Virus record (IMG/VR): IMGVR_UViG_3300046167_000916
Span: 1-45,168 of that record
Strand: one strand, 5' to 3'
DNA from: a virus
Length of the DNA stretch: 45,168 bases
Shown piece after piece: positions 550-45,168 of this stretch (position 1 is the stretch's first letter; every line of letters begins with the position of its first letter). A model generated the notes under the pieces. That model was not told the origin of the DNA and did no database searches. It saw only the letters and a list, made by a program, of their open reading frames with translations. The translations under genes and the position numbers were made by a program.

Positions 550-2353
550 TTCACGCCTGTCTTCTGCGATCTCAAAGGCGTTAAAGCCGCCTCCAAAGCT
601 GAACGTCAGTCAGTGGGCGGATAATTACCGTCAGCTGTCAAGTGAAAGCTCTGCGGAGGCTGGTCGCTGGACAACATCGAGGGCTGAATATCAGCGCGGA
701 ATGATGGATGCAGTTTCCGATACTGATGTGGAAACAGTTGTCTTGATGACTGGCGCTCAGATCGGCAAGACTGAGCTTATCAATAATGTCGTTGGTTATC
801 ATATACATCAAGACCCGGCTCCAATGCTAGTGGTGCAGCCTACGCTGGAGATGGCGCAAACTTGGTCAAAGGACAGGCTTTCTCCAGCGATCAGGGATAC
901 GCCCGTTCTGTCGGAGAAGATCAAGAATCCGAGGTCGAGAGACAGCGGCAACACAACGCTGCATAAAGTATTCCCTGGCGGACATGTTACTGCCTGTGGC
1001 GCAAACTCGCCCTCCTCACTGGCATCTCGCCCATGTCGGATCATTTTGTGCGATGAGGTTGATCGATACCCGCTGTCCGCTGGGACTGAGGGCGATCCTG
1101 TTTCATTGGCCAAGAAGCGTTCAACTACGTTCTGGAACCGCAAGATCATCATGGTCAGCACGCCAACCGACAAGGGCGCGAGTCGGATCGAGGACGCATA
1201 CGAGGAAAGTGACAAGAGGCGATATTTCGTGCCGTGCCAAGACTGCGGAGAGCATCAAGTCCTCAAGTGGTCGAATGTGAAGTGGTCGGAGGGCAAGCCT
1301 GCCTCTGCGGAGTACATTTGCGAGCATTGCGGGAGCTGCTGGAATGATGTGAAGCGTTTTGCGGCTATCAGGTATGGCGAATGGCGTGCAACTGCTGAAG
1401 GCGATGGCAAGACGGCTGGATTCCACCTTTCTGGGCTGTATTCACCTTGGACGCCGATGGAGGACACGGTTCGAGACTTTCTGGCGTCGAAGAAAGACCC
1501 AATGAGGCTGAAAACTTGGGTTAATACGTTTTTGGGCGAGACCTGGGAAGAGCAAGGCGACAGGATTGACGAGTTTGACTTGATGGACCGCCGCGAGGAC
1601 TGGGGTGATGAGTTGCCAGCGGATGTCTTGATGATGACCGCTGGTATCGACGTTCAGGATGATCGCTTGGAGATCGAGGTCGTTGGCTGGGGGAGGGGCG
1701 AAGAAAGCTGGTCAATCTCATATGATACGCTGTACGGAGATCCATCCACCTCTGAATTGTGGATACGTTTGGACAGCTTGCTTCAAAAGACGTTCACGCA
1801 TCCGCTCCACGGTGAGATGGTTATCAGATCGTCCTGCATTGACTCTGGTGGTCATTACACTCAGCAGGTTTACAATTATGCTCGGCAGAGGGCGGGTCGC
1901 AGGGTTTTTGCGATTAAGGGTGTCGGCGGTGAGGGTAAGCCCATCATTGGTCGCCCAAGTAAGAATAATATCGGAAAGATCAACCTTTTTCCTGTAGGGA
2001 CTGACACTGCGAAGGAATTAGTGTATGCTCGGCTCAAGATGACGGATGAAGGTGACGGCTACTGCCACTTCCCAGAAGATCGAAATGCGGAGTATTTTCG
2101 CATGTTGACCGCTGAGAAGAAGGTCACGAAGTATTTTAAGGGTCGCCCAAAACGTGAGTGGGTTAAGATCAGGCAAAGGAATGAAGCCTTGGATTGTAGA
2201 GTTTACGCTACCGCCGCATTGGCCGTGTTGAACCTAAATATTGAGGCAGTTTACAAGCAGGCACAAAATAGGTTATTATCCGACGAAACTTCACGTCCGT
2301 CTAGGGGTCCGAGAATGCCTAAACGTAGCGGCTTTGTGCATGGGTACAAGTAA
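503..2353 (+). CDS. Terminase large subunit, GpA family
   Basis: This 616-residue motor ATPase and nuclease packages the phage DNA into proheads. The ATPase half shows a Walker A-like loop GAQIGKTE (residues 84-91) and a Walker B segment with C-D-E (183-185). A zinc-ribbon-like pair, CQDCG near 245 and CEHCG near 273, sits in the middle. The nuclease half begins near residue 375 with AGIDVQDDRLEIE, whose Asp is typical of the RNase H-like metal site, and includes the conserved IDSGGHYT segment near 445. Length and order match lambda gpA-type terminases. It overlaps TerS upstream, and its stop TAA shares a base with the next ATG. Confidence 0.95.
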   Translation: MNWSDTTKKQQSKKLDSRLSSAISKALKPPPKLNVSQWADNYRQLSSESSAEAGRWTTSRAEYQRGMMDAVSDTDVETVVLMTGAQIGKTELINNVVGYHIHQDPAPMLVVQPTLEMAQTWSKDRLSPAIRDTPVLSEKIKNPRSRDSGNTTLHKVFPGGHVTACGANSPSSLASRPCRIILCDEVDRYPLSAGTEGDPVSLAKKRSTTFWNRKIIMVSTPTDKGASRIEDAYEESDKRRYFVPCQDCGEHQVLKWSNVKWSEGKPASAEYICEHCGSCWNDVKRFAAIRYGEWRATAEGDGKTAGFHLSGLYSPWTPMEDTVRDFLASKKDPMRLKTWVNTFLGETWEEQGDRIDEFDLMDRREDWGDELPADVLMMTAGIDVQDDRLEIEVVGWGRGEESWSISYDTLYGDPSTSELWIRLDSLLQKTFTHPLHGEMVIRSSCIDSGGHYTQQVYNYARQRAGRRVFAIKGVGGEGKPIIGRPSKNNIGKINLFPVGTDTAKELVYARLKMTDEGDGYCHFPEDRNAEYFRMLTAEKKVTKYFKGRPKREWVKIRQRNEALDCRVYATAALAVLNLNIEAVYKQAQNRLLSDETSRPSRGPRMPKRSGFVHGYK

Positions 2354-16423: not shown

Positions 16424-19400
16424 ATGGCTCAAATCAGCAACGGTGAATCAGGTTTATCCGCTCGCAACAAGCTCAACGAGGTAATTGACAAAATTGAGGG
16501 TAACTCCGCGATTGGCAATGATATTGAGGTAACTGGCACAGTCACAATGGACGGCGGTTCTACATCTGCCGACTTTACCTTCGGCGACAACGACAAAGCC
16601 ATCTTCGGCGCTGGGTCTGACCTACAGATTTACCATGATAGTTCAGCATCTTATGTTTCAGAGCAGGGTGTAGGGCCGCTTAACCTGCTTGCCTCGCAGT
16701 TAAATATATACAACGCAAGTCAAACCTCACAGTTAGCACAATTTAACACCACATCATCTAAACTTTTCCATGATAACGCAGAAAAACTCGCCACCACCAG
16801 CACAGGTGTAGACATCACTGGGACTTTGACCAGCGATGGGCTGACTGTGGATGGCAATCCCGTGCTGGCTGCGTCAGTAAACAACTCAAGCACAACAGCA
16901 GGCACAGGCGGGTTAAAAGTAAACACCGCAAGCACAAGTTCTTCAACCATTCCCTTTTATGTTCGGTCGGATAATAAAAATCGACTAAGGGTTAAAGGTA
17001 ACGGAGATTTTGAACTGTACGAGGACACAGGCACCACGCCAAAAATGGTGTGGTCAGCGGCTGATGAGAAGCTAGAGATAGGAAGCATTCAAGGTGGTGC
17101 TGATGGGCTTCTTGCGGTAAAAACCAATGCTAACAATCACGCTATAGCTATTGAGGAAGCCAGTGGGGTTGAGGCTTATGCAATTGGAGTTGAGTCCGAT
17201 GGCTCACTTGGTTTTTATAATAGTGGTAGCACAACTGCATCTGTTACGTTTGATGACAGCGGTAATGTCGGGATTGGGACGAGTTCGCCAGACTACAAAC
17301 TAGAAGTAGAAGAAGTAGGGACGGGTAGTGGTTTAGGCGGTATTGCCGCTGCTACTGCAACGGCAGGTGGAAATGCAGGCTATCGTTGGGTAAGCGGAGG
17401 AACTTCACGTTTTGGAATGACGCTGATAGGCAGTGCGGGTTCAGAAAGTTTACGAATATATGATTCTAACAACTCAACTGAACGCCTCCGAATCACCAGC
17501 TCCGGTAATGTTGGGATTGGCACAAGTTCGCCTAGTGCTACGCTTAACTTGAGTGGTGGTGGTAACGCCATTGTTCGCCTAGAGAATAATTCCTCGTCAT
17601 TGACTACTAACTCACTTCTAGGGTCTACGCAGTTTTATTCTAATGATCCATCTGGTCTTGGTGTTGGCGTAAAAGCATCCGTAAATGCGTATTCTGAAAA
17701 CTCTACTGGCTCTGCGTATTACATGACGTTTAACACTACGTCATTCTCTGGGAGTAATGATACAGAACGTATGCGCATCAACAGCATCGGTAATGTTGGG
17801 ATTGGTACATCTGATCCCAGCACTCGTCTGGACGTATCAACCAGCACAAGCACTATAGCAACTTTCCGTGTTCCAAGCGGCGGAGGAGCTAACAATAAAC
17901 GCCTTGAGGTAGCTACTGGTGGCGACCGTGTAATATTTAAGGCTTACACAGACAGCGATAGCTCAGCTGCCGATATAGCGTTTAACAATGGCGCTACATC
18001 AGAAGCCATGCGGATCACCAGCTCCGGTAATGTTGGGATTGGCACGAGTTCGCCATCGTACAGGTTAGACCTCGGCACCGTAAGCAATGGCACAACTCTG
18101 TTCAACGTAACCAACGGTTCCAACAGCAACTTACGATTTAAGATTGAGGATGGTGTCTCTACCATCATGAACACAGGTAGTTCAGCTGCGTTAGCCTTTA
18201 CTTCTGGTGGCACCACAGAACGCATGCGGATCACATCGGCAGGCAGGGTAGGTATAGGGAAAAGCAGTCCTGATGAAGAATTAGACATTTATGCAAGTGT
18301 CCCGACCATTCGGCTATCTGACTCTGATGGATCTTACTCTAGGGTGGCGCACAACACTGCTTCCATGATTCTTCAAGCGGATGAAGGTGGCGTTGGGACT
18401 GGCAGTATGCGGTTTGATGTTGGCGGCTCAGAAACCATGCGCATCGACAACAGCGGACGGGTTGGAATTAACACGACTTTTCCTGATGATAAGCTTCATG
18501 TTTATAGCTCAAGCAGTTTAGATCACATAAAAGTAGATGGCCCTGCTGGCATAAATAGAAATATTAATTTTGCAACTGCTGGTTCTACTAGGTGGAATAT
18601 CTACGCTAATAGTACTGCTGAAAGTGGTTCAAATGCTGGCTCTAATTTATCTTTTGGAAGATATACTGATGCTGGAGCATATAACGGTGTCGCTATGCTT
18701 ATTGAGCGCAGCAGCGGACGGGTTGGGATTGGCACTAGTTCGCCAAACAGAGATCTTCATGTAATTGGCACTGCTACCATTGAAACAACGACAGGAAATG
18801 GGTCTTTTTTGTTCGTCCCAACGGATACGGACAACCGCCTATATTCTCGTGCGAATAATGCTTCAAGTACCGCATTGCCTTTGTCGTTTATTATGGGCAA
18901 CACAGAAGCCATGCGGATCAACAGTAGTGGTAATGTCGGGATTGGCACAAGTTCGCCGACAGGTACATTGTCAATAGATAGTACAGGTGGAACAAGCCAG
19001 TCTATTATTACTACAAGCACAAATGGATCGTCTTATGTAAACTTAGAGATTGGCGGTATTAATGCCACCCCAAGCATCAAGAGAGAAATAACCTTCCACA
19101 CAAATGCTGCGAGTGGCTCAAGAACAGAACGCCTTCGCATCGACAGCAGCGGTAACTTGCTGGTGGGGACTACTGACACAACACCGTATAATAACAACGC
19201 AGGAACGTCAGCAGATCAAGGTTTTGTTGTATCTGGCGGTCGCATATATGCTGCCACAAATGGTAACAGCGTAAGTATCTTGAACCGCACGTCAACAGAC
19301 GGCGACATTATTCAGTTCCGCAAAAACGGCACCACTGTGGGGAGTATTGGGACGTATGGTGGTGACTTGGATATCGGCACTGACGACACCGTTATTCGTT

Positions 19401-19924
19401 TTAACAATGGCATCGATGCTATTTTCCCTGTTGCATCTGTTGGTGGCGTAGGCCGAGATAATGCTGTTGACCTTGGCTTTTCAGGCGCACGCTTCAAAGA
19501 CCTCTACCTGTCTGGCGGTGTATACCTTGGCGGCACTGGGTCGGCTAATAAGCTGGATGACTATGAGGAGGGGACTTGGACGCCTGTTGATGGAAGTGGG
19601 GCGGGGCTTACGTTCTCTAACGTTGCTGCTAACTACACGAAAATCGGCAGGCAGGTTTTTATTCAATGCGAGTTACAATACCCGTCAACGGCAGACGTAT
19701 CTGACATGGATATCTCTGGTTTGCCCTTTGCCGCAAGGGATACGTTTAGATTTGCGGGTGTTATGGCCTACACGACAAGCACACTTGCTGGCTCTGCTCA
19801 AATTTTAAATGGACAAACAACGTCAATAAGATTCAGGGAAAACGGCTCATCAATAGTGATACACAATGACCAGTTGAGCGGAGTTGTTTGCAGATTTACA
19901 ATGGTCTATCACACCAATTCATAA
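16424..19924 (+). CDS. Tail fibre with repeated S-G-N-V-G-I-G-T-S-S-P modules
   Basis: The 1166-residue fibre begins MAQISNGESGLSARNKLNEVID, a short tail-binding helix of this family, and is then built from repeats. The motif SGNVGIGTSSP or a variant recurs about nine times at 212-285 base intervals (roughly 17271, 17504, 17789, 18025, 18242, 18457, 18717, 18929, 19151), each followed by a variable beta module. Residues near the end read YLGGTGSANKLDDYEEGTWTP, the usual C-terminal transition to a receptor-binding or chaperone head. Such fibres are known in cyanophages and pelagiphages. It probably binds a host surface polysaccharide (inference). Start follows an AGGAGAT box. Confidence 0.88.
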   Translation: MAQISNGESGLSARNKLNEVIDKIEGNSAIGNDIEVTGTVTMDGGSTSADFTFGDNDKAIFGAGSDLQIYHDSSASYVSEQGVGPLNLLASQLNIYNASQTSQLAQFNTTSSKLFHDNAEKLATTSTGVDITGTLTSDGLTVDGNPVLAASVNNSSTTAGTGGLKVNTASTSSSTIPFYVRSDNKNRLRVKGNGDFELYEDTGTTPKMVWSAADEKLEIGSIQGGADGLLAVKTNANNHAIAIEEASGVEAYAIGVESDGSLGFYNSGSTTASVTFDDSGNVGIGTSSPDYKLEVEEVGTGSGLGGIAAATATAGGNAGYRWVSGGTSRFGMTLIGSAGSESLRIYDSNNSTERLRITSSGNVGIGTSSPSATLNLSGGGNAIVRLENNSSSLTTNSLLGSTQFYSNDPSGLGVGVKASVNAYSENSTGSAYYMTFNTTSFSGSNDTERMRINSIGNVGIGTSDPSTRLDVSTSTSTIATFRVPSGGGANNKRLEVATGGDRVIFKAYTDSDSSAADIAFNNGATSEAMRITSSGNVGIGTSSPSYRLDLGTVSNGTTLFNVTNGSNSNLRFKIEDGVSTIMNTGSSAALAFTSGGTTERMRITSAGRVGIGKSSPDEELDIYASVPTIRLSDSDGSYSRVAHNTASMILQADEGGVGTGSMRFDVGGSETMRIDNSGRVGINTTFPDDKLHVYSSSSLDHIKVDGPAGINRNINFATAGSTRWNIYANSTAESGSNAGSNLSFGRYTDAGAYNGVAMLIERSSGRVGIGTSSPNRDLHVIGTATIETTTGNGSFLFVPTDTDNRLYSRANNASSTALPLSFIMGNTEAMRINSSGNVGIGTSSPTGTLSIDSTGGTSQSIITTSTNGSSYVNLEIGGINATPSIKREITFHTNAASGSRTERLRIDSSGNLLVGTTDTTPYNNNAGTSADQGFVVSGGRIYAATNGNSVSILNRTSTDGDIIQFRKNGTTVGSIGTYGGDLDIGTDDTVIRFNNGIDAIFPVASVGGVGRDNAVDLGFSGARFKDLYLSGGVYLGGTGSANKLDDYEEGTWTPVDGSGAGLTFSNVAANYTKIGRQVFIQCELQYPSTADVSDMDISGLPFAARDTFRFAGVMAYTTSTLAGSAQILNGQTTSIRFRENGSSIVIHNDQLSGVVCRFTMVYHTNS
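17271..19170 (+). repeat. Repeat array within the fibre gene
   Basis: About nine copies of a unit beginning GGTAATGTTGGGATTGG (with variants) lie within this span at 212-285 base spacing. Copies are coding and in frame, so recombination between them could add or remove whole modules. Confidence 0.75.
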
Positions 19925-23619: not shown

Positions 23620-24835
23620 CTAAACTCTCCACCATTTGTATTCTTCCGCCAATCCAGCGCATCACTGGCACGGCCATTGAGTTGCCCATTGCCTTGTATC
23701 GAGGACCATCTGGGCAGCTTTCTGCTGGCTTGTTGCGATATGGAATTTGCGTGTAGTTATCAGGGAAGCCTTGCAGGCGCTCGCATTCTGTTGGGGTTAA
23801 GCGTCGCACTTGAAGGTCAGATTGCACTGCATGTCGGTCACCCGCTGTTAGTGTGTATGACACTCCACTTTCATCAATTCCGAAGCCTTGTGATGTTGGC
23901 TGCTTTTCTTTGAGCGCTTGTGCTTGTGTTGCCACCGCGTGTTGGCTGCCTACGTCAAGAGTGTACATTGGCCCGTCATTTGTTATGCCCAATCCATTTT
24001 GCGATGCACCTCTAGTGGCATTCTGTATCGCCACCGCTGGTGTCTTGCTCTTATCCAGCGTTGGCGTGACTTCAGTTGACACGCTGTCGCCTTGGTTGGC
24101 GCTGTTTTGTGCGCCAAAGGCTATTGGCAATGTTTCTGTTGTCGGATCGTATGCGATTCCCGTGCGAGTTGTAAGGCACTGAGCCACAACAGCCTCCGCT
24201 TCTACTCGCTCGTTGCCTGTGCGACTGAATGGAGCGCCTTGTGTAACTGTGGGGGCAGCTTCTTGCCCCGCTTCTCTGCTCGGCGCAGGATGCCCTGACA
24301 TGCTTTCGCGCTCAAAAAGAACCGCTGCGGCACGCCGCCAGTCTCCAAGGTATCCGACAACGAACACACGGCGGCGTCGCTGGGCCACTCCGAAGTATTG
24401 AGCGTCAAGCACTCGGTAGGCGAACCCATACCCGAGCTGGCCCAGCGCCCCGAGAAAGGTTCCAAAATCCCGTCCTCGTTGGCTAGACAAGACGCCGGGG
24501 ACGTTCTCCCAAACCAACCACTTGGGCTGATATTGTGCAGCAATGGCAAGATAGGTGAGCATGAGATTTCCCCTTGGGTCATCAAGTCCCTTGCGAAGTC
24601 CTGCGACGCTGAACGATTGGCAGGGGGTTCCTCCGACCAGAAGGTCAATTGATCTGTCAATGGGCCACTCCTTAAATTGCGTCATGTCGCCAAGGTTAGG
24701 GACATCTGGATAACGATGCGCCAGCACGGCGCTTGGGAACTTTTCTATTTCGCTGAACCATTGCGGCTTCCAGCCAAGAGGATGCCATGCGGCTGTGGCC
24801 GCTTCAACGCCAGAGCAAACTGAACCATATTTCAT
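23612..24835 (-). CDS. DNA cytosine-C5 methyltransferase
   Basis: The 407-residue enzyme methylates cytosine in DNA, probably to protect phage DNA from host restriction. Class motifs are present: SAM-binding start YGSVCSGVEAATAAW (motif I), Cys72 in GGTPCQSFSVAGL (motif IV, the catalytic Cys), WENVPGVLSS (motif VI), QRRRRVFVVG (motif VIII), and the C-terminal TPTECERLQGFPDNY (motif IX). Residues 170-340 between VIII and IX are the target recognition region and carry low-complexity repeats (NSANQGDSVST and similar). No restriction endonuclease is seen nearby. It overlaps the HTH gene upstream by four bases and contains a second ORF in another frame. Confidence 0.95.
   Translation of the reverse strand: MKYGSVCSGVEAATAAWHPLGWKPQWFSEIEKFPSAVLAHRYPDVPNLGDMTQFKEWPIDRSIDLLVGGTPCQSFSVAGLRKGLDDPRGNLMLTYLAIAAQYQPKWLVWENVPGVLSSQRGRDFGTFLGALGQLGYGFAYRVLDAQYFGVAQRRRRVFVVGYLGDWRRAAAVLFERESMSGHPAPSREAGQEAAPTVTQGAPFSRTGNERVEAEAVVAQCLTTRTGIAYDPTTETLPIAFGAQNSANQGDSVSTEVTPTLDKSKTPAVAIQNATRGASQNGLGITNDGPMYTLDVGSQHAVATQAQALKEKQPTSQGFGIDESGVSYTLTAGDRHAVQSDLQVRRLTPTECERLQGFPDNYTQIPYRNKPAESCPDGPRYKAMGNSMAVPVMRWIGGRIQMVESLDG
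24202..24660 (-). CDS. ORF nested in the methyltransferase gene (conserved phage hypothetical)
   Basis: A 152-codon frame lies wholly inside the methyltransferase gene on the same strand, shifted by one base. It starts at TTG (24660) with AAGGAG seven bases upstream, a strong site for an internal start. The product opens MTDQLTFWSEEPPANRSASQ and includes SGWFGRTSPASC, then WASSGMGSPTECLTLNTSEW and ACQGILRRAEKRGKKLPP. I recognise this sequence type as an annotated hypothetical protein in many phages beside or inside such methyltransferases (from memory, not searched). It may be true overprinting or a conserved artefact of the conserved methyltransferase motif IV-VIII region. Function unknown. 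Confidence 0.45.
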   Translation of the reverse strand: MTDQLTFWSEEPPANRSASQDFARDLMTQGEISCSPILPLLHNISPSGWFGRTSPASCLANEDGILEPFSGRWASSGMGSPTECLTLNTSEWPSDAAVCSLSDTLETGGVPQRFFLSAKACQGILRRAEKRGKKLPPQLHKALHSVAQATSE

Positions 24836-25599
24836 GCCTCATCCTCAAACTTGTTCGACAGCGGTTTGATCGGCTGCTTGCTGAAGATCCACCGCCACTG
24901 CGGCTTTGTGTACCCAGGCACCTTGATGAAATCGCGCACACGGTACAGCTTTCCAGCGTCGGCCATGTTGTTCAGATAACTTGAGGTGCGAGCAATGCTC
25001 TCACCGAGCATACCAGCGCCCTCAGAAGCCGATATGCGTTGGTCATAGCGCAACATGCGGAAAAGACGCTCACCCTGTTCTATGCCGTGCTGACGGCGCT
25101 TCTCAGCCAGCTCAATCGCACTTGGGTGCATGGTTGACTTGCGGGCCTCACGCGATGGCAGTGGATCGCGCTTGCCGAGCTTATGCTGCAACTTCTCAAA
25201 CTCAAGCAGGACGTGACCGTAAGTGATCTCAAACCGCTCATGCTTGTCTGTGACGCCCTCCAGCATAGCCTTCAGTCGAGCTTCGGCAGATCGCTGATCG
25301 CGGATTTTAGCTTCTCGAGCAGAGCGCCTTGCTCTTGCAGCCTCTGCTGCAACGCTGGCCTCATCGCTGTCTTCGGTTCCGACAGCAGAATTGAGTTCAC
25401 TCTTTCGAGCCGTTTTATATATTGCATTATTAGGTCCATATTGGCGCCTCTTTCGCTTCAGGGTTATATTAAGTTTACTTGTGATCCGGCCAACGGTGGT
25501 CGGTGTTACGCGCAGCAATTCAGCAATTTCGCTTTGTGACATATCCATCTCTGCGCACCTGATGACCTGATCGGTCAAGGTTTCAGCTTCCTGTCTCAT
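24832..25599 (-). CDS. Helix-turn-helix protein, probable regulator
   Basis: The 255-residue protein has an N-terminal HTH at about residues 18-45 (MSQSEIAELLRVTPTTVGRI), a Lys/Arg-rich linker, an Ala/Arg/Glu-rich helix (near 90-120) suited to coiled-coil dimerisation, and a C-terminal part with TSSYLNNMADAGKLYRVRDF that reads as a winged-helix domain. Its closest likeness is phage-encoded DNA-binding regulators that act on the adjacent operon. It is translated between the zinc-finger gene and the methyltransferase, overlapping both by a few bases. No repressor of the CI type is present, so lysogeny control is unlikely. Confidence 0.65.
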   Translation of the reverse strand: MRQEAETLTDQVIRCAEMDMSQSEIAELLRVTPTTVGRITSKLNITLKRKRRQYGPNNAIYKTARKSELNSAVGTEDSDEASVAAEAARARRSAREAKIRDQRSAEARLKAMLEGVTDKHERFEITYGHVLLEFEKLQHKLGKRDPLPSREARKSTMHPSAIELAEKRRQHGIEQGERLFRMLRYDQRISASEGAGMLGESIARTSSYLNNMADAGKLYRVRDFIKVPGYTKPQWRWIFSKQPIKPLSNKFEDEA

Positions 25600-32581: not shown

Positions 32582-32595
32582 TCGTGTATCATATG

Positions 32596-32631
32596 GGTGA
32601 GCTTTTCCATCGGAGGTGAGCTTTTCCATCC
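32596..32631 (+). repeat. Two copies of an 18-bp repeat, left of the gpZ-like gene
   Basis: The unit GGTGAGCTTTTCCATCGG starts at 32596 and again (variant) at 32615, just before the gpZ-like gene start. The same unit (GGTGAGCTTTTCCCTCGG) occurs five more times right after that gene. Each unit includes GGTGAG close to a ribosome-site-like sequence, but the spacing is not suited to translation. Confidence 0.7.
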
Positions 32632-32642
32632 CAGGGGGTCCA

Positions 32643-33380
32643 ATGTCTATTCGCTTCTCAATTAAGGCCGACACAGATCAGATGTACAAGAAGTTGGACA
32701 ACCTGGCGCGTCGGCAGATCCCCTTTGCGGTTGCCAGGGCAGTAACCCAAACAGCGGTGAAGGTGCGGAATGAGGACATCACCCGCGAATACATGCGCAC
32801 ATTTGAGGCGCGAAACTTATCTTTCATCATGGCGGTTCACCGGGTTTACGGCGCCAACGCATCTTTTGCTAAGCGCACAGGGATGGCTGTGGCCTCGATC
32901 CAGCCCGTTGATGACCCAGTGCCAGCAGGGACAACGGCAGGCGCTAGCGGTTCACGGGAAGGCACAAAGAAGACCAGAGCCGGCACGCAGTTCATGAAGC
33001 GCCATGTCAAAGGTGGGATCAAGACATCTGGGCGCACAAAGCTGGCCATTCCCATCAGTGGCGCGAATATAAAGCGTCGGCAAGGGTCTGGTCCTATGGC
33101 TGGACGTATCACTGAGGCTTCTAAGCCAAAGCAAGTGCTGGCGCGTAAGAATACTTTTTATGGCACTAGCAAGCGCACTGGTAAAAGCATGATTATGCAG
33201 CGCACTGGCAGCAAGAAAAACACAAAGATAAAGGCGCTTTACACCTTATCTCCAAGCGCAAAGATCAATCGCGTTTACAATCCCCTGCCAGCGGCAAAGC
33301 GCGGCATCGCGCGAACTTTCCCCAGCCTTTTCCGCAAATCTTTTGTCGGCGCACTGCGCACCGCGAAAATTCGCGGCTGA
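32643..33380 (+). CDS. Minor tail gpZ-like protein, displaced
   Basis: ATG at 32643 is preferred because the longer frame from 32616 begins inside a repeat. GGGGG lies 6-7 bases before ATG. The 245-residue protein is Lys/Arg-rich. Its first 55 residues (LARRQIPFAVARAVTQTAVK with a Y-M-R-T-F-E-A-R-N helix) resemble lambda gpZ-type (prophage minor tail Z) proteins; the C-terminus has TLSPSAKINRVYNPLPAAKR and FPSLFRKSFVGALRT, again family-like. It would help close the tail at the head end. In lambda-like phages this gene lies in the tail operon; here it lies alone between two clusters of 18-bp repeats. Confidence 0.6.
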   Translation: MSIRFSIKADTDQMYKKLDNLARRQIPFAVARAVTQTAVKVRNEDITREYMRTFEARNLSFIMAVHRVYGANASFAKRTGMAVASIQPVDDPVPAGTTAGASGSREGTKKTRAGTQFMKRHVKGGIKTSGRTKLAIPISGANIKRRQGSGPMAGRITEASKPKQVLARKNTFYGTSKRTGKSMIMQRTGSKKNTKIKALYTLSPSAKINRVYNPLPAAKRGIARTFPSLFRKSFVGALRTAKIRG

Positions 33381-33467
33381 ACTTTTCCCTCGGTGAACTT
33401 TTCCCTCGGTAGGGTGAGCTTTTCCACTGGTGAGCTTTTCCCTCGGTAGGGTGAGCTTTTCCCTCGG
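33376..33467 (+). repeat. Five copies of an 18-bp repeat, right of the gpZ-like gene
   Basis: The unit GGTGAGCTTTTCCCTCGG (with small variants such as GCTGAACTTTTCCCTCGG) starts at 33376, 33392, 33413, 33429 and 33450, so spacing alternates 16, 21, 16 and 21 bases. The first copy includes the stop codon of the gpZ-like gene. The paired units of about 37 bases suggest a duplicated block. Function unknown. Confidence 0.75.
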
Positions 33468-35424: not shown

Positions 35425-35679
35425 GCTGCGCGCTGCCCGCCCGGTTGCCAGGTTAAAACGAGCCGCGCAAATATCGCGTCTCATTGCCCAAACTAATCGC
35501 GCTACCCCCTAGGCCCGTCGAATATTACGGCAATGAGCGACCCTAAAAAAGGGCCGTTTTTAGGCCGTTTTAAGCGCGGTTTGCATTATGGAAAGCACTT
35601 GCGCTCAAAACCTGCTTCCCCCCACTCAAAACGTCTTAAACGGGTCCTCTGGGCCTGTCAGCCTGCGGGTACGCGCGAG
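35425..35679. other. Non-coding phage end, possible packaging (cos/pac) region
   Basis: Between the last terminator and the junction there is no convincing gene. It contains CCTAAAAA (35542) and its inverse TTTTTAGG (35557) as a hairpin, tandem GGCCGTTTT, and CCGTTTTAAG near 35566 with a partial inverse CTTAAACGGG near 35636. On a circular map it lies just before TerS, the usual site of the packaging signal. A 67-codon frame across 35533-35736 spans the junction and is not credible. Confidence 0.4.
35668..35679 (+). repeat. 12-bp direct repeat, right copy and junction
   Basis: GGTACGCGCGAG repeats the first 12 bases of the window. DNA before it is phage-like; DNA after it soon becomes the 3' flank of an algal gene on the opposite strand. 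Confidence 0.6.
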
Positions 35680-35798
35680 ACGAACTGTGAATACGGTACG
35701 TATAGTCTACCTATTTATCTCCAGACCGCGTGGTGATACGTGACGATCGCGACACGTGAAACCATCTCGCGCGAGAGTGTGTGATGTCATCTGTCTCA

Positions 35799-37733
35799 CT
35801 ACCTCGACCTCGAGCGTCCCATCTTCTTCCGCCCGCGCCCAGCTTTGAAGATGTCCCCGGCGCGCAGCGGCTTCTTCTCCCCCGGAGCGCCCTTGCCGCG
35901 CTTGTCCTCCCCCTTCGCCGGCCTCCGCCGCTTCTTCTTCCCCCCGAACTCGGAGGGTTCCTCGACGTCCGCGTACGTCGGGTCCCTCTCCCGCTTCCCC
36001 CCGCCCAGCCTCTTGCCGTCGCCGTCCAAAGACGCGCCCTCGCCGCCGCCCAGCTTCTTGCGGCCGCGCAGGTACCCGGGCAGGTGCGAGAGGTGCGGCA
36101 GCGGCGGCTGCTTGGCGAGGCTCACGTCGTGCTTGAGCAGGTTCAGGTCCTCGGGGTTGTCCTCGAAGTGCGCGGCGAGCCGCTCGCTATTGAGCAGCTC
36201 CGCGCGCAGCTCGCGCACGCGCGCCTCGCGCACGGCGGTCTTCCCCACGGACCGCGCCGCGTCCTCGGCGCGGTAGCGGAGCGACTCGACGGCTTCCGGC
36301 TTCAATCCCGTAAACGGAGCCATCGCGTTCGCCGCCGCCGCGCCGGCGTCGCCGCCGTTTTCCGCCAGCGCCGTCTTCACCGCCTCGAAGAGCGGCGCCT
36401 CCGCCGGGGACACCAGCGTGATGGCCGTGCCGCTCTTCCCCGCCCTTCCCGTCCTCCCGACCCGGTGCAGATACGCCGACGCGCTCGGAGGCACGTCGAA
36501 GTTGATCACCGTGCGCACGTCTTTGAAGTCGACGCCGCGCGCGACGCCGAATTCGACGTCGCGGCGCGTTTTTCGCTGGCTCTTTTTCTCTTTCGTTTTC
36601 AAAGCGGAAGCGTCGCCGGTCGAAGCGTCGCCAGCCTCGTCGTCCGACGCGTCGTTCGCGCCGTCGCCGCCGTCGCCGCCGTCTCGTCGCCCCAGGGTCT
36701 CTTCCCCGCGTTCCTCGCCCTCGGCGGCGGCGATCATGTAGTCGTACACGCCGCGGTTGAACTCCTGCAGGATGTGCGCGCGCGAGTTGGCGGGGAGCTC
36801 GGCGTGCAGCGCGCAGCAGGGCACGCCGAACTTGTCCAGGAACAGACGCAGGCGCACCGCGGCGTCGGGGTCCTTGACGAACACGAGCGTCTTGCGACGA
36901 CACACGCCCAGGCGGAGCAAGGACATGCACGTCAGAAGTTTGTCTTTCGCCGCCACGTCCAAGAAACGATGCGCGATGTCGGGACCGCCGTCCTTTTTCT
37001 CGTCACCGCCGTCCTTTTTCTCGTCGCCCTCCGCTTTCGTCGCGGACACGTCCAGCCGCACGGGGTGCTGCAGCACGAGCGCCTCCAGCCTGGCGAGTTC
37101 CTCGCCCGCGGTCGCGGAGAGGAGCATGCACTGCACGCCCTTCTCGCAGGCATCAACCACCTTCTTGATGTCCTCCTCGTACCCGAAGCTCAGCAGCAGA
37201 TCAGCCTCGTCCAGCACGAGCAGCTCCAGGCCGGCGTTCAACGCGCCGGTCGGGAAGAGGTTCTCGCGGACGCACTCCGCGGCGCGCGCGGGCGTGGCGA
37301 TGAGGATTTCCGGAGGTGCGCCCGCGAACTCGCGGAGCACGGCGGAGGCGCACCCAGCCGCGGGGAGCTCGCCCGCGCGCAGGGAAGGCGCGCACTTCCC
37401 GAGGAGAAACGCAGCTTCCTTCTTCACCTGATGCGCGAGCTCGCGCGTGGGCACGAGCACGAGCGCGCGCGGGTTGGAGGGCGGCGCGCCTCCCATCGCG
37501 GCGTCGCCGCTGGTGACGATCTTGTGGATCGCGGGGAGTAAGTACGCCGCGGTCTTGCCGCTCCCGGTGTGCGCGCGAGCCACCACGTCCTTGCCCTCCA
37601 GCACGAGCGGGATCGCCTGGGACTGCACCGCCGTCGGCGCGCGGTACCGCTTCTTCGTCAGCGCGCGGAGCAGCCGCGGGTCCAGCCCGAGGGTCGTCCA
37701 GCCGTCGCCCGCGTCGCCCGACTCGGCACCCAT
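35799..37733 (-). CDS. DBP9/DDX56-type DEAD-box RNA helicase
   Basis: The start at 37733 (MGAESGDAGDGWTTLGLDPR) is chosen because the DEAD-box Q-motif begins there; the frame stays open to 38330 but the extra part shows no helicase features and overlaps a neighbour. The 644-residue protein has AHTGSGKT (54-61), PTRELA (95-100), DEAD (175-178), SAT (206-208) and HRVGRTGR (423-430). The segment VDFKDVRTVINFDVPPSASA is typical of DBP9/DDX56, which unwinds pre-60S ribosomal RNA in the nucleolus. Residues 335-395 form an acidic insertion with Gly/Asp runs, and the C-terminus is Lys/Arg/Gly-rich. Conserved in green algae and plants. Confidence 0.9.
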   Translation of the reverse strand: MGAESGDAGDGWTTLGLDPRLLRALTKKRYRAPTAVQSQAIPLVLEGKDVVARAHTGSGKTAAYLLPAIHKIVTSGDAAMGGAPPSNPRALVLVPTRELAHQVKKEAAFLLGKCAPSLRAGELPAAGCASAVLREFAGAPPEILIATPARAAECVRENLFPTGALNAGLELLVLDEADLLLSFGYEEDIKKVVDACEKGVQCMLLSATAGEELARLEALVLQHPVRLDVSATKAEGDEKKDGGDEKKDGGPDIAHRFLDVAAKDKLLTCMSLLRLGVCRRKTLVFVKDPDAAVRLRLFLDKFGVPCCALHAELPANSRAHILQEFNRGVYDYMIAAAEGEERGEETLGRRDGGDGGDGANDASDDEAGDASTGDASALKTKEKKSQRKTRRDVEFGVARGVDFKDVRTVINFDVPPSASAYLHRVGRTGRAGKSGTAITLVSPAEAPLFEAVKTALAENGGDAGAAAANAMAPFTGLKPEAVESLRYRAEDAARSVGKTAVREARVRELRAELLNSERLAAHFEDNPEDLNLLKHDVSLAKQPPLPHLSHLPGYLRGRKKLGGGEGASLDGDGKRLGGGKRERDPTYADVEEPSEFGGKKKRRRPAKGEDKRGKGAPGEKKPLRAGDIFKAGRGRKKMGRSRSR

Positions 37734-37943
37734 CGTCGGAGACGCGAGGACGTGGAGAGGGAGGGGAGATGCACGAGCGCGGAGAGCGGCGCGCTGTCGC
37801 AATGGGCGGCGGCGGCGAAAAATCGTCGGCGGCTGCGCTCGCAGGAAAGCGAGGCGCAACTCGCTCTCCCCACTGTCGGCGAAACGGAAGCTCGCCACCT
37901 TCCGGTGGGCACCCTTGATCATGGACAAGAGAGAGTTTGTTTT
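37734..37943. promoter_or_regulatory. Divergent promoter region of helicase and DUF72 genes
   Basis: About 210 bases lie between the two opposed starts. No TATA element or repeat stands out, as is usual for compact algal genomes. Shared or bidirectional promoter is likely. Confidence 0.4.
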
Positions 37944-39140
37944 ATGCCACCACGACAGAGCACTCCGCGCCAGGGGCGTCTCGCGGACCGCGCCATGGCG
38001 TCCGGCGCGCCGCTCGACCTGGCCGGCCGGCTTGTGCAGGGCACGTGCGGCTGGGGCTCCCCGCACCAGCACCTGAGCGTGTACCCCGCGTCCTGTCGCA
38101 GCGCGGAGGATCGGCTGGAAGTGTACTCGAGGCACTTCGGCGCGGTCGAGGTGGACTCCACGTGCTACGCGATTCCGAGCGCTAAAGTCGTCGAGCGGTG
38201 GGTCAAACGCGTCCCCCCCCGGCTTCACGTTCCTGTTCAAGGCGTTCGGGGCGTTCTGCGCCTCCTCCGTCGACGTCGCGTCGCTCCCCAGAAGCACGCG
38301 CGCGCTGCTCGGGCCGGAGGATGACGGCAAATCGCACGTCGCCTACGCGCGTCTGCCGGAAGAAGCGCGCGCCGACCTGTGGAACGCGTTCCACGCGTGC
38401 CTGGCGCCCGTCTCTAAGGCGAACAAGCTCGCGTGCGTCGTGTTCCAGTTCCACACCACGTTCGGGGTGAGCCCCTCGAACCGCGCGAAGGTGGAGGAGC
38501 TGCGGACCCGGCTGGATCCAAAACTGCAAATGGCGGTGGAGTTTCGCGACAGGGCGTGGATCGTCGGCGCCGTCGGCGACGAAACCGCGCGTTGGTGTTC
38601 GCGAATGGATCTCGCGCTCGTGGCTTCCGACGAGCTCGCGCACGAGACCGCGCAGCCGGACAGGGCTCAGACCGGTCTGCCGAAGGGCCAGTAAGCGGAT
38701 CGTGATGCCGACCAAGTTGGTCGCCTCCGCGACGTGGGGCGCGCTGATTCGAGTGCACCGAAGACACGGCGGTAAAGAACGCGTGCTTACGCCGAGCGAG
38801 ATCGTTGGTTGGGGGGCGAGGATAAACGCGATACTCCCGGAATTACGAAAACAACGTCGTCACGAAAGCGAAGAGACGAAGCACGGCCCGCCCGTCAAGG
38901 GCAGGCTCGCCCTTGTACGTGATGTGGGGCACGGACTGGAAAGACGCGCCCTTGCTCAACGCGGCGGCGTTGGCGAACGCGGTGCCCGCGGCGGCGCGGC
39001 TGGACTGGGCGGCGGAGCAGAAAAAGAAGGCGCGCGCGAAAAAAAAACGGCGTCGCGGGGCTCTTCGCGAGACGCGCGCAAATGGCGAATGGCGAGGAGG
39101 GCGTACGAGAGGGGTTTGGTCTCGAGAGCCGTCGGTGTGA
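37944..39140 (+). pseudogene. DUF72/YecE-like gene broken by three frameshifts
   Basis: The gene starts at ATG 37944 (MPPRQSTPRQGRL) and the family-like GTCGWGSPHQ then VEVDSTCYAIPSAK follow. The frame breaks at a run of eight C (38213-38220), again near 38690 (a T makes TAA after LPKGQ), and near 38897-38906. Continuing one frame over each time restores FTFLFKAFGAF, VVFQFHTTFG, then MPTKLVASATWGALIRVHRR and YVMWGTDWKDAPLLN. Each break fits one extra base. The DUF72/YecE fold is a TIM-barrel-like protein of unknown role (found in bacteria and plants). The gene may be whole in the organism and broken only in this sequence. Confidence 0.65.
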
Positions 39141-39600
39141 GACCGTCACAAGAAAAACCGATGACGAGAGAGCGCGTGACGAGAAAAAGGAAGGCGCCGT
39201 TTTCGCGAACGGAAAGGCGCGCGAACAAAAAGCGAACGAGGACGCCGCGCCGGCGACGACAAAAAAGCGCTTTTTAGGCGAGGAGACTCGTTCGCCGTTT
39301 CCCGGAGGCGCGGGCGATGATTCATCGCGTTTGGGTTCGGGTTGCGCGCCGGTCGCGAAGCGCGCAAAAAACTCAGCCATCGCGCGGATGTTCGCCAAGT
39401 GCGCGTCCCCGGACGGGAAGCGGTAGACAGGGCGCATCGGGGTGCTTTTAGGGGAACGAACCGCGGAGTCGGTCGGAGGTATTCTTTGCGTTGTGATGAC
39501 TACACCAGGAAGCGTTTTTTCGCCGGAAGGCCTCGTCCGAGTTGTTGCTTTTTCCTGGGGTTGACCGATTCGGCATTTCTGGGCGCGCCTCGTCGTGGCG
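39141..39600. other. Intergenic region, no convincing gene
   Basis: About 460 bases between the DUF72-like gene and the EF-hand gene. Only short low-complexity frames with Arg/Ala/Gly bias are seen, as in much of the algal part. It would hold the 3' end of the DUF72 transcript and the promoter of the EF-hand gene. Confidence 0.4.
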
Positions 39601-41352
39601 ATGGCGGTGGCGCCGCCGACGATGGAGTTCGTCCCCGCGAAGAAGAAAGTGGCGGGGTGGGACTCGAAGGACTCGCTGTGCGAGGTGTACTTCGCCTCGT
39701 GCGAGCGCCTGGGGTGCACGGCGAACAGCGAGGTGGTGCGCCAGCTCGTGCGACGCGCGAAACTGCTCGCCCCTCTGCCCACGCATCGCATCGAAGGCAT
39801 GTCCCGCGCGGAGATGCTGAACCTGGCGTTCGACCACATGGACCTGGACGGCAGCGGGACGCTCTCCATCCCCGAGCTGGTGGGCTTCGCGCGCGGGCTG
39901 AACCCGATCAAGGTCCACGGCGACGTGCGCGCCATGATCAAGCAGATGGACAAGGATGGGGACAACAAGATTTCGAGAATGGAGTATCTCGACGCCATGC
40001 GCCCCATCGCCGACGCGCTCGTGGACGAGGAGTTTCAGCTGGGCATCTTAGAGACGCTCGCTTCCGTCCCGGACATCGACGACCTGCCCGACCGGGAAAG
40101 CAAGCTGGCGGCGGTGTTTCGCCACCTGGACGTGGACGGTTCCGGGTCGTTGGACCAGGACGAACTCGTGGCCATCTTCATGGACGGCGCGGACCCCGAC
40201 CCGGCGGAGGCGCGCCGCAACGCGGAGAAGCAGTTGGGGTGGCTGGACACCGACGCCGACGGCGTCGTGTCCCAGGTTGAGTTCGTGGAGGCCATGCTCT
40301 TCCTGCACGCCTACATGTCCGACGAGGACTTCCACGCGCACTGCGAGGAGATGATGCGCGAGCACAAGCACGTGTACGACTTCTCCAACGCCTTCCTCGG
40401 GCCGAGAGGCGTCGAGGCGGCGCTCCCCGCGCTCGCGCGCGATCGAACGTTCACGCACGTTTCCTTCCGCGGGTGCGGCGTTCGGAACGCGACGGCGGCG
40501 AAGATCGCCGAGCACCTCGCGGGCCACCCGACGCTGCGTTACTTGGATGTCGGTTCGAACCCCATAAGCGAGGGCGGTGTTGTTCATCTCGCGACGCTCG
40601 TGGAGAAAACGCCGAGCCTGCGCGACGCGCGCGTGGACGGTTGCCACTTCACGCGCGGGTTCTCGGACGTCTCCGAGAATTTAAATCCCGACGCGTGCGT
40701 CTCGAAACAAAACGCGGCGAGGCTGGCGAAGGCTCTCGCCACGAATCGGCTCCCTCCCCCCCCCTCCAGCGAGGAGGAGCTCGCGGCGTTGGACGTCGAA
40801 GCGTTCCTGTTTAAACGCCGAGCCGAGGTGAAGGCGCTGTTTAAGAACATCGCCGGCGACGACGGGAAGGTTTCTTTCGACGCGCTGCGTTTCGGCCTGC
40901 GCTCGCTCTCGAGCGAGTGGAACGCGCTCTCGAAACACCTGGCGGCGTTCGTCAACCCCGAGCGCGTGTTCGGGCGCGTGGACGGCGTGGAGACCGCGGA
41001 CCTGGACGGCGACGGAACGCTGAGCTACGCGGAGTTCGCGCGCGCGCTGGTGAAGGAAACTAAACGGGTCAAGGTGATTGCCGCGTGCAAAAAAAAACGC
41101 GTGCAGCTCAAGGTTGTGTTTTACGCGCTCGCGGGGGACGGAGGAAGGCTCAGCGCGGAACGGCTGGCGGACGGCGTCGAGGGCGTGCTGGTGGAGCAGG
41201 CGGAGGATCACTGGGGCTTTTCCGTTGAAGAAATGCGGTCGGTGATCAACCGCGAGCTGTTCCGCGGCGCAACCGGCGAGTTCGACGAGGAAGGGCCGGA
41301 CGCCGAGCTCACCTGGGGCGAGTTCTACGCGCGGCTCGCCGCGCTCTCCTGA
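39601..41352 (+). CDS. EF-hand protein with LRR-like segment
   Basis: ATG at 39601 is used; an upstream GTG in frame would not serve in a eukaryote. The 583-residue protein has five canonical EF-hand loops: DLDGSGTLSIPE (81-92), DKDGDNKISRME (117-128), DVDGSGSLDQDE (177-188), DTDADGVVSQVE (216-227) and DLDGDGTLSYAE (467-478). Between loops four and five, about 275-370, there is an LRR-like or Leu/Asn-rich segment (GHPTLRYLDVGSNPISEGGV). It likely binds calcium and signals or scaffolds; the target is unknown. A C-terminal helical region (EEMRSVINRELFRGATG) has no named family. No intron is apparent. Confidence 0.85.
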   Translation: MAVAPPTMEFVPAKKKVAGWDSKDSLCEVYFASCERLGCTANSEVVRQLVRRAKLLAPLPTHRIEGMSRAEMLNLAFDHMDLDGSGTLSIPELVGFARGLNPIKVHGDVRAMIKQMDKDGDNKISRMEYLDAMRPIADALVDEEFQLGILETLASVPDIDDLPDRESKLAAVFRHLDVDGSGSLDQDELVAIFMDGADPDPAEARRNAEKQLGWLDTDADGVVSQVEFVEAMLFLHAYMSDEDFHAHCEEMMREHKHVYDFSNAFLGPRGVEAALPALARDRTFTHVSFRGCGVRNATAAKIAEHLAGHPTLRYLDVGSNPISEGGVVHLATLVEKTPSLRDARVDGCHFTRGFSDVSENLNPDACVSKQNAARLAKALATNRLPPPPSSEEELAALDVEAFLFKRRAEVKALFKNIAGDDGKVSFDALRFGLRSLSSEWNALSKHLAAFVNPERVFGRVDGVETADLDGDGTLSYAEFARALVKETKRVKVIAACKKKRVQLKVVFYALAGDGGRLSAERLADGVEGVLVEQAEDHWGFSVEEMRSVINRELFRGATGEFDEEGPDAELTWGEFYARLAALS

Positions 41353-41741
41353 CGGTGTTTTTTTACCTTCAAGGTATTTTTAGAGAGAGCTTCACGACAG
41401 ACTGTCGCGGAGAGAGCGTATGTATCGACGCGAAGCGAAGAGTGACGGACGTGCGGCGGTGTGTTGTTCTCTGTGTGATTCCAACGAACGACGTTTAACG
41501 AATCGTCGCGCGGTGAAGCGTCTCTGCTCTGGAACACGAGGCGGCGGAGCGGTCGCGCCGGCGCCGCGCGTTTACAGAAACGCGGGATGCCGAAAAGCGA
41601 CGGGACGCGTTCGACGGGAAAATATCCCGAAAGCCGATCTTCGTCGGATGTCTTTCGAACCCGCCTCTCGTGACCTTTCGTGGCTCGTCCAAGTGACGGC
41701 GTCGACGACGTCCACGAGACGAGCGTGGTCGTGCGACCACC
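41353..41741. other. Intergenic region of converging genes, no convincing gene
   Basis: About 390 bases between the end of the EF-hand gene and the end of the Stc1-like gene. Only Arg-rich short frames are present. Probable 3' untranslated regions of both. Confidence 0.4.
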
Positions 41742-42165
41742 TCACGCCACGCGAGACATGGACTTGAAGTTGTTGTGCACCTGCCTGCCCTTGTTGTGCA
41801 CCTCGCCGGTCTTCAGCTCCCTGCTTTCGTCGAGGCTCTTACGACGCTCGGCCTTGGCCTCGTCCTTCTCCGCCTCGTTGCAGTGGCGGCACGACATGTA
41901 CTGCTTCTGCGGCAGCTGGAGCTGACGCTGAGAGAACTCCTTCTTGTCCCGTTTGGTGCCTGTCGCCGGATCGAGGGGGATCGATGGGATCGAGGGGGTC
42001 GGGGGTGAGTGAGGGAATCTCGTTGTTGCTTTTCGCGACCACGACGGTTCGATAGTGTCCGATTCTTCGGGGTTTCGAGGGGTACGACGCACCGCAATCC
42101 TTGCACTGGAAGGGGCCGTGGCACCCGAGGCGGTTCAGCGAGGACGTATCCGCGGTCTTGGTCAT
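41742..42165 (-). CDS. Stc1-domain-like zinc-ribbon protein, two exons
   Basis: Exon 1 (42165-42093) and exon 2 (41959-41742) joined over a 133-base intron give 96 residues. The product reads MTKTADTSSLNRLGCHGPFQ, then CKDCG, TKRDKKEFSQRQL and MSCRHCNEAEKDEAKAERRK, a C-x-x-C ... F-S-x-x-Q-L ... C-x-x-C pattern like the Stc1 domain, where two Cys pairs bind zinc. In fission yeast Stc1 links RNAi to chromatin; plant and algal relatives are small and uncharacterised. Splicing keeps a Gly codon (G|GC) across the junction and fixes frame, strongly supporting the model. The C-terminus is Lys/Glu-rich. Confidence 0.7.
41960..42092 (-). other. Spliceosomal intron, 133 nt
   Basis: The intron starts GTGCGT and ends CGACAG in the - strand orientation. 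It contains GATCGAGGGG-type tandem repeats (GGATCGAGGGGGATCGATGG on the + strand). The only intron in the algal part that could be set to the base. Donor GTGCGT resembles donors reported for introner elements in Micromonas; that link is a guess. Confidence 0.7.
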
Positions 42166-42453
42166 CGTTACGGGGGGTAAAAGAATGCGAGTGGGTACGT
42201 GCGTGTGGCCGCGCGCGAAGAATCAATGCCGAGCGCGTCGCGAGTCGCTTTCTCTCGGTGACGTGGCGCTGACGCGGCGATCTAATTTCTCGATTTCGCG
42301 CGAAAAAGGGAGATCACACCCGAAACGCGACTTTTTGCGTCGTGTGTGTGTGTTTCAACCACCCGGACGCGGATGTCCGCTACGAACGCGTCCTCCCGTT
42401 GCCCCGCCTCGCGCCCCTCGCGCACAAAAAACAGATCCTTCGGTTCGGTGTCC
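42166..42453. other. Region between Stc1-like and JmjC genes
   Basis: About 290 bases between the start of the Stc1-like gene and the end of the JmjC gene, both on the - strand. It would hold the Stc1-like promoter and the JmjC 3' end. Only low-complexity frames; no gene seen. Confidence 0.4.
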
Positions 42454-44311
42454 TCATGTCCACCAGAAACTCACCGAGAAGCTGCTGGTCACGGACTGCA
42501 CGTAGTGGAACCACCCCGGGGGCACGTACAGCGCGTCCCCCGGTTCCAACAACGCGTCTGAAAAGGACGCGCTGGAAAACTTTGGGAACGTCTTTAAAAA
42601 GGTTTCGTCGAGCGCGTGTCTTATATCGGCGCGCGACGCGTTGGCTCTTTTCGGGTCGGAAAAGAGGTACAGGTTCGGTTCCTGAACCGGCGCCCATAGA
42701 CGCACGTACTTCGAGCCGCAAACCTGCACGAGCAGGTTGTGCGTCGGGTCGCGGTGCGTCGGCGAAACCGTGCCTTTCGGCCCGAGCCACGCGCGCGTCG
42801 CGATGGACCCGGCCCCGTCGCGACGCGCGCCGCCATCGGAGTCCTTCTCGAGCGTCAAAGAGCAGTAGTCGGGGACGATCACGTCTCTTGCTCAACTTTG
42901 GGATCTGGTCCAGCAAAGCGTGCTGCGCGAGGTACCCCATCTTCTTCGGACTCTTCTTCGCGAAACACACTGGGGCGTCGGAGACGGAAGTTTCGGAGTT
43001 TCCGAGCGCGGAGCGTGAGAGCGCTTTTTTTTCAAACGTCTCGTCGCGCTCGTCGCGCGCGTTTTCCACGAAGACGTATTCGTCCAAAAACGCGTCCAGC
43101 GTGACCAGCTCCCGCGCGTGCGTCGCGTGCAGGTAGTGCTCGCCCGTCTCCACCGGCACGGTCCTCGCGCCGGCGACGGCGCGCAGGTACGTTGGGTCTC
43201 GCCACTTCGCGAACGCCGGCCACGCAAACGCGAGCCCCTTGAGCACAGCCGGCTCGCCCGGCGCCATCGCGTCAGTCAGGAAGCGCTCGAGCGACGGAGG
43301 CGACGCGAACGTCGCGACGGGTTCGCGAGCGCTCGCCAGACGGATCAGAGTCGCGCGACGCGCGCGGTTCGTCTCGGTGTCTTCTTCGCTCGTTTTTGTT
43401 TCGCGTTTTTGTTTTTGTTTTTGTTTCGCGGAGACCGCCTTCGCGTCACGCGCGCCGAGCGACCCCGGCGGAAGCGCGGCGACGACGTCGTCCTCCGCGT
43501 CGTCGCCCAGCGCGCGGACGACGAGTCTCGTCCGACGCTTCCTCGTGCGCTTTTTCGAGAACGCGTCTGACTCCATCGCCTCCTGCGCGTGCGCGATGGC
43601 GCGCTCGAGCTCGTCTCGGAACGTCGGGCCGCCGAGGAGCGACGCCCGATCCAGCGAAGCCAAGGTCTCCGCCGCGCGCGCCGGCGCGAATCCGCCGCGC
43701 GCATCCGCGACGGCCATCGATGCCATCACGTACAGGTCACGCCACGCCTCGTCCACGTCCTTCCAGTCGCCCGTGTGCAGCTTCTCCCAGGCGAGGTCGA
43801 CCAGCACGTCGCACGCGCGAATCGTCGAGCGGCTCGCCTCGGACGCGTCGCCGTCCGTCGGCGGGGCGCTCTCCGGGCGCGCGCGCTTCTCCAGATGCTC
43901 CAACGCGAGCGCGAGCGTGCGCTCCGCCGACGCCCCGCCGACGCATCGAAGGCGCTCGCGAAGCGTCGCGAGGCGCGCGTGGCCGGGCGCGCCAGGGCGC
44001 GACGAACGCGCACGCGCGCCACGAACATGCGGCACCTGTGCGCATGCGGCCGCTGCGGGGAAGGAACGGCGGCGGCACGCCCCCGCCGCGCGCGCCCCGG
44101 GCGAGTGGCCGCGCGCGCGTCGTTTCGCGCTCGTGGTTCTCGCGTCGTCCGAGAGAAAAGGCAAAACTAACTTCGCCAATTGTTCAGGTGTTCCAATTGG
44201 CGCGGCGCGGGCACGACGCACGCTGTTCCCGGGTTTTTCGCGCGTGCGATCTGCGTGGGGTCCCTCGGCGCACCGGGATGGCGCGCCTCGGGGAGACCGG
44301 CGACGGCGCAC
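42454..44311 (-). CDS. JMJD5/KDM8-like JmjC dioxygenase, frameshifted
   Basis: The product joins the long - strand frame (from 44311 to about 42885) to a second frame that ends at 42454. The first carries an N-terminal helical part (CVGGASAERTLALALEHLEK) and the start of the JmjC domain (FLTDAMAPGEPAVLKGLAFA, then a cofactor-pocket LDAFLDEYVFVE). The second has TVSPTHRDPTHNL, where His and Asp bind iron, and GDALYVPPGWFHYVQSVTSS with the third His. This is the layout of JMJD5/KDM8 (Fe/2-oxoglutarate hydroxylase acting on proteins). One extra base near the junction (CAAGAGACGTG) explains the break. The start codon is unclear; 44311 overlaps the neighbour. Confidence 0.75.
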
Positions 44312-45168
44312 CCTCCGTGAGCGCGGTGTCGGGCTTCGAGAGCGACCTCGCGGATTTAATCGACGATCACGTGCGGGCGTGCGGCGGGGACCTGAGCTTC
44401 GACGCGTTCAAGGCGCACTGGCAGAGCCGATCGTTCTCGTTCGTGCACAACGCGCGCCTGGTGGAGCTCCTGGAGGGCGAGTACGCGCAGATGCTCTTCT
44501 CGACGACGATGCCGTACCTCGCGCCCGACGCGGGACCCACGGTCCGGCGGATCGCGGCGCTCTACGCGCTTCATCTGCTGTACCACACGCAGCAGCTCGC
44601 TCCGCGCGCGCGCGTGTACGTCACGCCGCGGGACGTGCGTCGGCTCGCGCAGCTCGTGGAGACGTGCGTCGCGATGGGCGCGGCGGACGCCGTTCGCGCG
44701 GCGAAGGAGCTCGTGGACGACCGAGCGTTCGCCGTCGGCGTGTCGGACGCGACGCGCGAGGAAGCGCTCGACGACGCCATCGCCGAGGCGGAGGCGCGGA
44801 CGCGGACGACTTCCGCCTCGGCTGCGAGACAAAAAAAGAGGAAGACGGCGAAGGATGCGGGATCCGACGCGGCACGCGGTGACGGCGACGACGATGTCGA
44901 CCGCGGTCGCGTTTCCGACGACGAAGACGAAAACCCGGAGGCTTTGCTCCGCGCGCGCGTCGCCGCGGCTTCGCGCGGCGCGCTCGAGCATCTGCGCGCG
45001 ACGCGCGTCCCAGGCTCGTTCCAGGCGCTCGCCGAGGACTCCACCAGGTACGGCGCATGCATGGCCGCCCTGACGCGCCGCGGCGAAGGCCACAAAGGAA
45101 ACGCACGCCGCGGCGAGACCTCCGGCGACAAAAGCGGCCGCGCCGAGACGCGCACCGCGGAGATGCAC
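44278..45168 (+). CDS. SNAPC1/SNAP43-like subunit, 5' part
   Basis: ATG at 44278 opens a frame without stop to the window end: 297 residues. The segment FESDLADLIDDHVRACGGDL and FDAFKAHWQSRSFSFVHNAR, then LFSTTMPYLAPDAGPTVRRI and ALYALHLLYHTQQLAPRARV match the N-terminal half of SNAPC1 (SNAP43), a subunit of the snRNA-activating protein complex that starts U snRNA gene transcription. A Lys-rich and acidic stretch follows (residues near 180-220). The 3' part lies beyond the window. The start lies inside the JmjC frame's 5' end (34 bases), so one of those starts is probably elsewhere. Confidence 0.85.
   Translation, partial: MARLGETGDGAPSVSAVSGFESDLADLIDDHVRACGGDLSFDAFKAHWQSRSFSFVHNARLVELLEGEYAQMLFSTTMPYLAPDAGPTVRRIAALYALHLLYHTQQLAPRARVYVTPRDVRRLAQLVETCVAMGAADAVRAAKELVDDRAFAVGVSDATREEALDDAIAEAEARTRTTSASAARQKKRKTAKDAGSDAARGDGDDDVDRGRVSDDEDENPEALLRARVAAASRGALEHLRATRVPGSFQALAEDSTRYGACMAALTRRGEGHKGNARRGETSGDKSGRAETRTAEMH

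Follow-up and report, generated by a model that had tools for sequence, protein, structure and literature searches.

How does a phage genome come to be joined, without a gap, to what appears to be nuclear DNA of an alga? This question is raised by the 45,168-nt IMG/VR record IMGVR_UViG_3300046167_000916 (the whole of which is referred to here as the window), in which phage genes on the left give way to eukaryotic genes on the right. A first-pass annotation, made from the sequence alone, had noticed a 12-bp repeat at base 1 and again at the join, and had considered a whole phage genome opened at a terminal repeat and joined to an algal contig by short overlap far likelier than a real integration. 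In the current study, the repeat is identified as the phage's own cos site, that is, a pair of filled-in cohesive ends. The best explanation, to which we assign a probability of roughly 0.93 as a whole, is that bases 1–35679 represent the whole linear genome, as carried in the virion with its 5′ overhangs now filled in, of a marine roseophage that packages at cos and looks strictly lytic, and that algal DNA was attached artificially to this filled end during library making or assembly, giving a chimera at a physical genome end.

The Repeat and the Join

The 12-mer GGTACGCGCGAG lies on the plus strand and is exact at positions 1–12 and 35668–35679, as had been reported, and no other copy, either exact or with one mismatch, occurs anywhere in the 45,168-nt window. 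A chance match at both ends had been called unlikely, and the statistics agree: dinucleotide shuffles gave a mean of 0.38 matches with at most one mismatch over the whole window, base composition would yield an exact match no more than 60 positions from the join with a probability of approximately 4e-6, and a chance repeat was rejected on these two grounds. The two copies are identical over exactly 12 bp, with G at base 13 and A at base 35680. A long direct terminal repeat was likewise rejected, because the identity ends after 12 bases and relatives of the phage join their ends in a single copy (see below). The join itself contains no N characters, and across it the G+C content moves from 42–56% (up to 35 kb) to 61–71% (from 36 kb).

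The cos Site in Related Contigs

If the 12-mer were a cohesive end, a molecule with its right end fused to its left would have CTGCG, GGTACGCGCGAG, and GCACG in direct succession, and this arrangement was sought in IMG/VR. The joined-end sequence CGGGTACGCGCGAGGCACG proved to be internal to 11 other IMG/VR contigs. In contig 3300025483_000169 (L005/L085), the 40 bases left of 35668 are followed by the 12-mer and then by the 40 bases right of base 12, all of them exact, and the circular record of the isolate CRP-811 carries an identical joined cos sequence, CTGCGGGTACGCGCGAGGCAC.

The ends of related contigs fall at the same place. Among 80 TerL-bearing relatives, 38 begin here (33 exactly at GGTA and five one T earlier), and the starting 12-mers in this set are GGTACGCGCGAG, GGTAGTTCGCGC, GGTAATTCGGAC, and variants of these. 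The extra T before the cos 12-mer in the five contigs (L029, L035, L054, L055, and L082) could be accounted for by an untemplated A at the opposite 3′ end. On the right, four contigs (L100, L110, L120, and L131) stop directly after GGTAGTTCGCGC or GGTAATTCGGAC, and another (L142) stops after GGTAATTCGGAT; at positions 12078–12106 of L141 (IMGVR_UViG_3300045999_009132), GGTAATTCGGAC is followed directly by AGATCGGAAGAG, 12 final adapter-like bases that we take to be the Illumina TruSeq adapter after an A-tail. In a complete linear relative (36,239 bp), GGTAGTTCGCGC forms both the first 12 and the last 12 bases, which is the layout of window positions 1–35679 without the algal tail. As in a 5′ cos phage, a short sequence is thus present at both ends of the window's phage part and of this relative, and only one copy remains where the ends are joined in circular or concatemeric molecules. 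When 5′ overhangs are filled by end repair, the two termini come to share a sequence, and assemblers place contig limits at such ends (PMC5557969); because both ends of the window's phage part carry the 12-mer, its overhang was probably of 5′ polarity and filled in.

Three relatives with the same GGTACGCGCGAG core (L093, L094, and L095) end at GGTACGCGCGAGG, which is 13 nt long and finishes one base later than do ends of the GGTAGTTCGCGC and GGTAATTCGGAC types, which measure 12 nt. On account of these contigs, the overhang in the window's subgroup is probably 13 nt, with base 13 (G) also belonging to it, and the comparison of the two kinds of end suggests natural variation in cohesive-end length within one family. 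The 13th base at the join is A, not the G of GGTACGCGCGAGG, and at the join one base of the end that would be expected was therefore dropped or exchanged.

The 12-mer is thus the cosN sequence of the phage, present as the filled-in left cohesive end at 1–12 and as the filled-in right cohesive end, a second cosN copy, at 35668–35679 (both on the plus strand), and the cos-to-cos unit at 1–35667 is 35,667 bp long. The proposal of a whole genome opened at its natural ends stands, whereas the wording "terminal repeat" does not. Joining by short overlap is not supported either: a merge by the assembler of the phage with an algal contig whose start had the same 12 bases would fit the position of GGTACGCGCGAG exactly at the join, but there is no need to invoke one, since the 12-mer is the phage's own sequence and this accounts for both copies, the one at the join being wholly explicable as the right cohesive end with no algal copy needed. 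Twelve bases are, moreover, fewer than the overlaps or k-mers of common assemblers, and we regard a merge of this kind as quite unlikely.

Gene Content and Family of the Phage

The gene for the terminase small subunit (TerS; 76–549, plus strand; PHROG 57, E 4.6e-27) occupies a Nu1-type position adjoining cos and is followed by that for the large subunit (TerL; 503–2353, plus strand), which belongs to the lambda gpA family (Pfam GpA_ATPase, E 2e-94; GpA_nuclease, E 1.2e-100). The other structural and lysis genes left of the join encode a lambda-family portal, a capsid with a protease domain, head-tail attachment and tail proteins, a holin, and an endolysin, and further genes encode a cytosine methyltransferase, RusA, an exonuclease VIII-like protein, and an AAA helicase. 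The first-pass annotation had described the phage as lacking an integrase, and no integrase or recombinase family was recognized among the phage ORFs scanned, every ORF of at least 200 aa being included.

Several further features of the phage part were recorded. A helix-turn-helix protein encoded beside the cytosine methyltransferase (24832–25599, minus strand) has a weak match to the PHROG 57 terminase small subunit (E 1.9e-4), and seven degenerate copies of a 58-bp repeat are found at 17232–19179, within a tail-fibre-like ORF (16424–19924). The motif TGA[A/G]CTTTTCC occurs seven times on the same strand (32595–32632 and 33375–33467, with spacings of 16, 19, and 21 bp), flanking a minor-tail-like gene (32616–33380; PHROG 1924) in a layout kept in at least 10 related contigs. 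A reading of the TGAGCTTTTCC repeats as iterons accompanied by a replication initiator was set aside, since the intervening gene is similar to one for a minor tail protein.

By family, the window phage belongs with the published CRP-822-type roseophages, and its terminase is of lambda type. Its TerL is 78.5–79.9% identical to those of six cultured roseophages at 100% query coverage, with the next phages at approximately 50% or less, and the order of packaging and structural genes (TerS, TerL, portal, capsid, head-tail attachment) is common to the window, CRP-811, CRP-821, and CRP-406. The likeness to CRP-811 (PV211010, Roseobacter phage) includes a TerL that is 80% identical over its full length, the order TerS, TerL, portal, capsid, head-tail joining, and tail, and no recognizable integrase; integrases are absent from "almost all" family members (PMC12629253). 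Genomes of the family measure 27.4–39.3 kb, those of subgroup II being 35.75 kb (PMC12629253). The unit of approximately 35.7 kb lies within this range and resembles subgroup II, as is consistent with one complete genome of the size expected from its ends and from the 36,239-bp relative; the whole 45,168-bp record would not fit. The unit is longer than the CRP-822-type isolates (29–33 kb), and the window, unlike them, has one end occupied by 9.5 kb of unrelated eukaryotic sequence. The word "cos" is absent from the text of the paper describing the family (PMC12629253).

Comparison With Phage Lambda

Like phage lambda, with its gpA/gpNu1 terminase and cosQ-cosN-cosB arrangement, the window phage has a gpA-family terminase, a cos site immediately before the genes for the small and large terminase subunits, and ends that share approximately 12 bases. 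A cosQ-like motif, GGGTCCT (35642–35648, plus strand), is the only copy in the phage part and lies 26 nt before the left nick, compared to 30 nt in lambda, which corresponds to the conserved 7-bp cosQ adjoining cosN in strictly lambda-like phages (PMC4669245); some relatives of the window phage have GGTACTA in place of GGGTCCT. The cohesive ends differ, having 5 of 12 bases in common with those of lambda, and relatives with the window's core suggest a length of 13 nt, not 12. The system is therefore a lambda-type cos that stands outside the strict lambda-like group, since that group is defined by cohesive-end identity (PMC4669245).

The Eukaryotic Segment

The DNA beyond the join (35680–45168) is eukaryotic nuclear DNA, as judged from its genes and G+C content, and is a foreign contig fragment with no match in any of the fetched related phage contigs. 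Its first gene is the helicase that had been noted just after the phage sequence, a DEAD-box RNA helicase ORF of 843 aa (35799–38330, minus strand; Pfam DEAD, E 3.3e-34) with its 3′ end toward the join, whose best solved-structure matches are DEAD-box helicases, mostly eukaryotic (DDX23, DBP2, and DDX54). It is followed by the gene for an EF-hand protein (39595–41352, plus strand; EF-hand families) resembling the flagellar protein FAP101, chain 7n6g_4T of which is the best solved match (E 2e-25), and by a KDM8/JMJD5 gene (42380–44311, minus strand) whose C-terminal half lies in another frame and ORF (42454–42882), a split that would be expected if an intron interrupts the gene. A plausible candidate for the source is a green flagellate, for instance Micromonas; the description of this side as "algal" holds as to its eukaryotic nature, and a green-algal origin is probable. 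A near-identity DNA search of 25001–45168 against phage records returned no match, searches of viral contigs and genome contigs found no relatives of the helicase protein, and no match was found for the 21-mer CTGTGAATACGGTACGTATAG just past the join.

Packaging of the algal DNA in the virion, by mis-packaging or transduction past cos, would place foreign DNA immediately beyond the packaging cut site, which is where it starts. Cos termination, however, cuts at precisely this site, whose copy here is intact; the foreign DNA comes from a eukaryote rather than from the bacterial host group of the phage, and the total of 45 kb exceeds the family range of 27–39 kb (PMC12629253), so that this origin appears extremely improbable.

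Origin of the Join

Of the 13 contigs that were retrieved and carry this right arm, none leads into foreign DNA: 10 continue into the left arm and three end at cos. A nuclear insertion or a prophage would have foreign DNA on both sides, and the left algal flank is absent, with the window starting exactly at the left cos end. A real insertion, in which a marine green alga took up the complete linear phage DNA, cos end first, at a break in its nuclear genome and the second junction falls outside the contig, would agree with a precise junction that is free of Ns, and end joining is able to capture linear DNA whose ends are free. Against this, the full gene set is kept over the full cos-to-cos unit, the other cos end begins the window where the second algal flank would be expected, and no route is known by which a Roseobacter bacteriophage could enter the nucleus of an alga; there is also no recognizable integrase, in keeping with "almost all" members of the family (PMC12629253). 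We therefore consider a real insertion very improbable, in line with the earlier preference for a chimera, which the missing integrase and the missing second algal flank both favor.

What was sequenced is almost certainly an ordinary phage with an artefact attached, rather than a phage resident in an alga. In the mechanism that we propose, a lambda-type (gpA/Nu1-like) terminase would nick concatemers at cosN in a staggered manner, producing complementary 5′ overhangs of 12–13 nt that start with GGTACGCGCGAG, and end repair in library preparation would then fill them, leaving the same 12 bp at both ends of the linear molecule. Being a physical end, the filled end would also be where assemblers stop. 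As to how algal DNA came to follow position 35679, the most likely route would be blunt ligation between an algal fragment and the filled phage end, or else a bridge that the assembler built across two dead ends, and the step that made the chimera may have been the library, amplification, or the assembler.

Implications

The physical ends of cos phages are free ends and, as such, offer a route by which eukaryotic genes can enter public viral contigs. A chimera at a cos end is hard to spot, since the phage part is whole and meets the foreign DNA cleanly, and it would be wrong to count the eukaryotic genes beyond 35680 as cargo of the phage. For the CRP-822-type roseophages, a cos sequence is now given, and this site allows contigs of the family to be recognized as complete.
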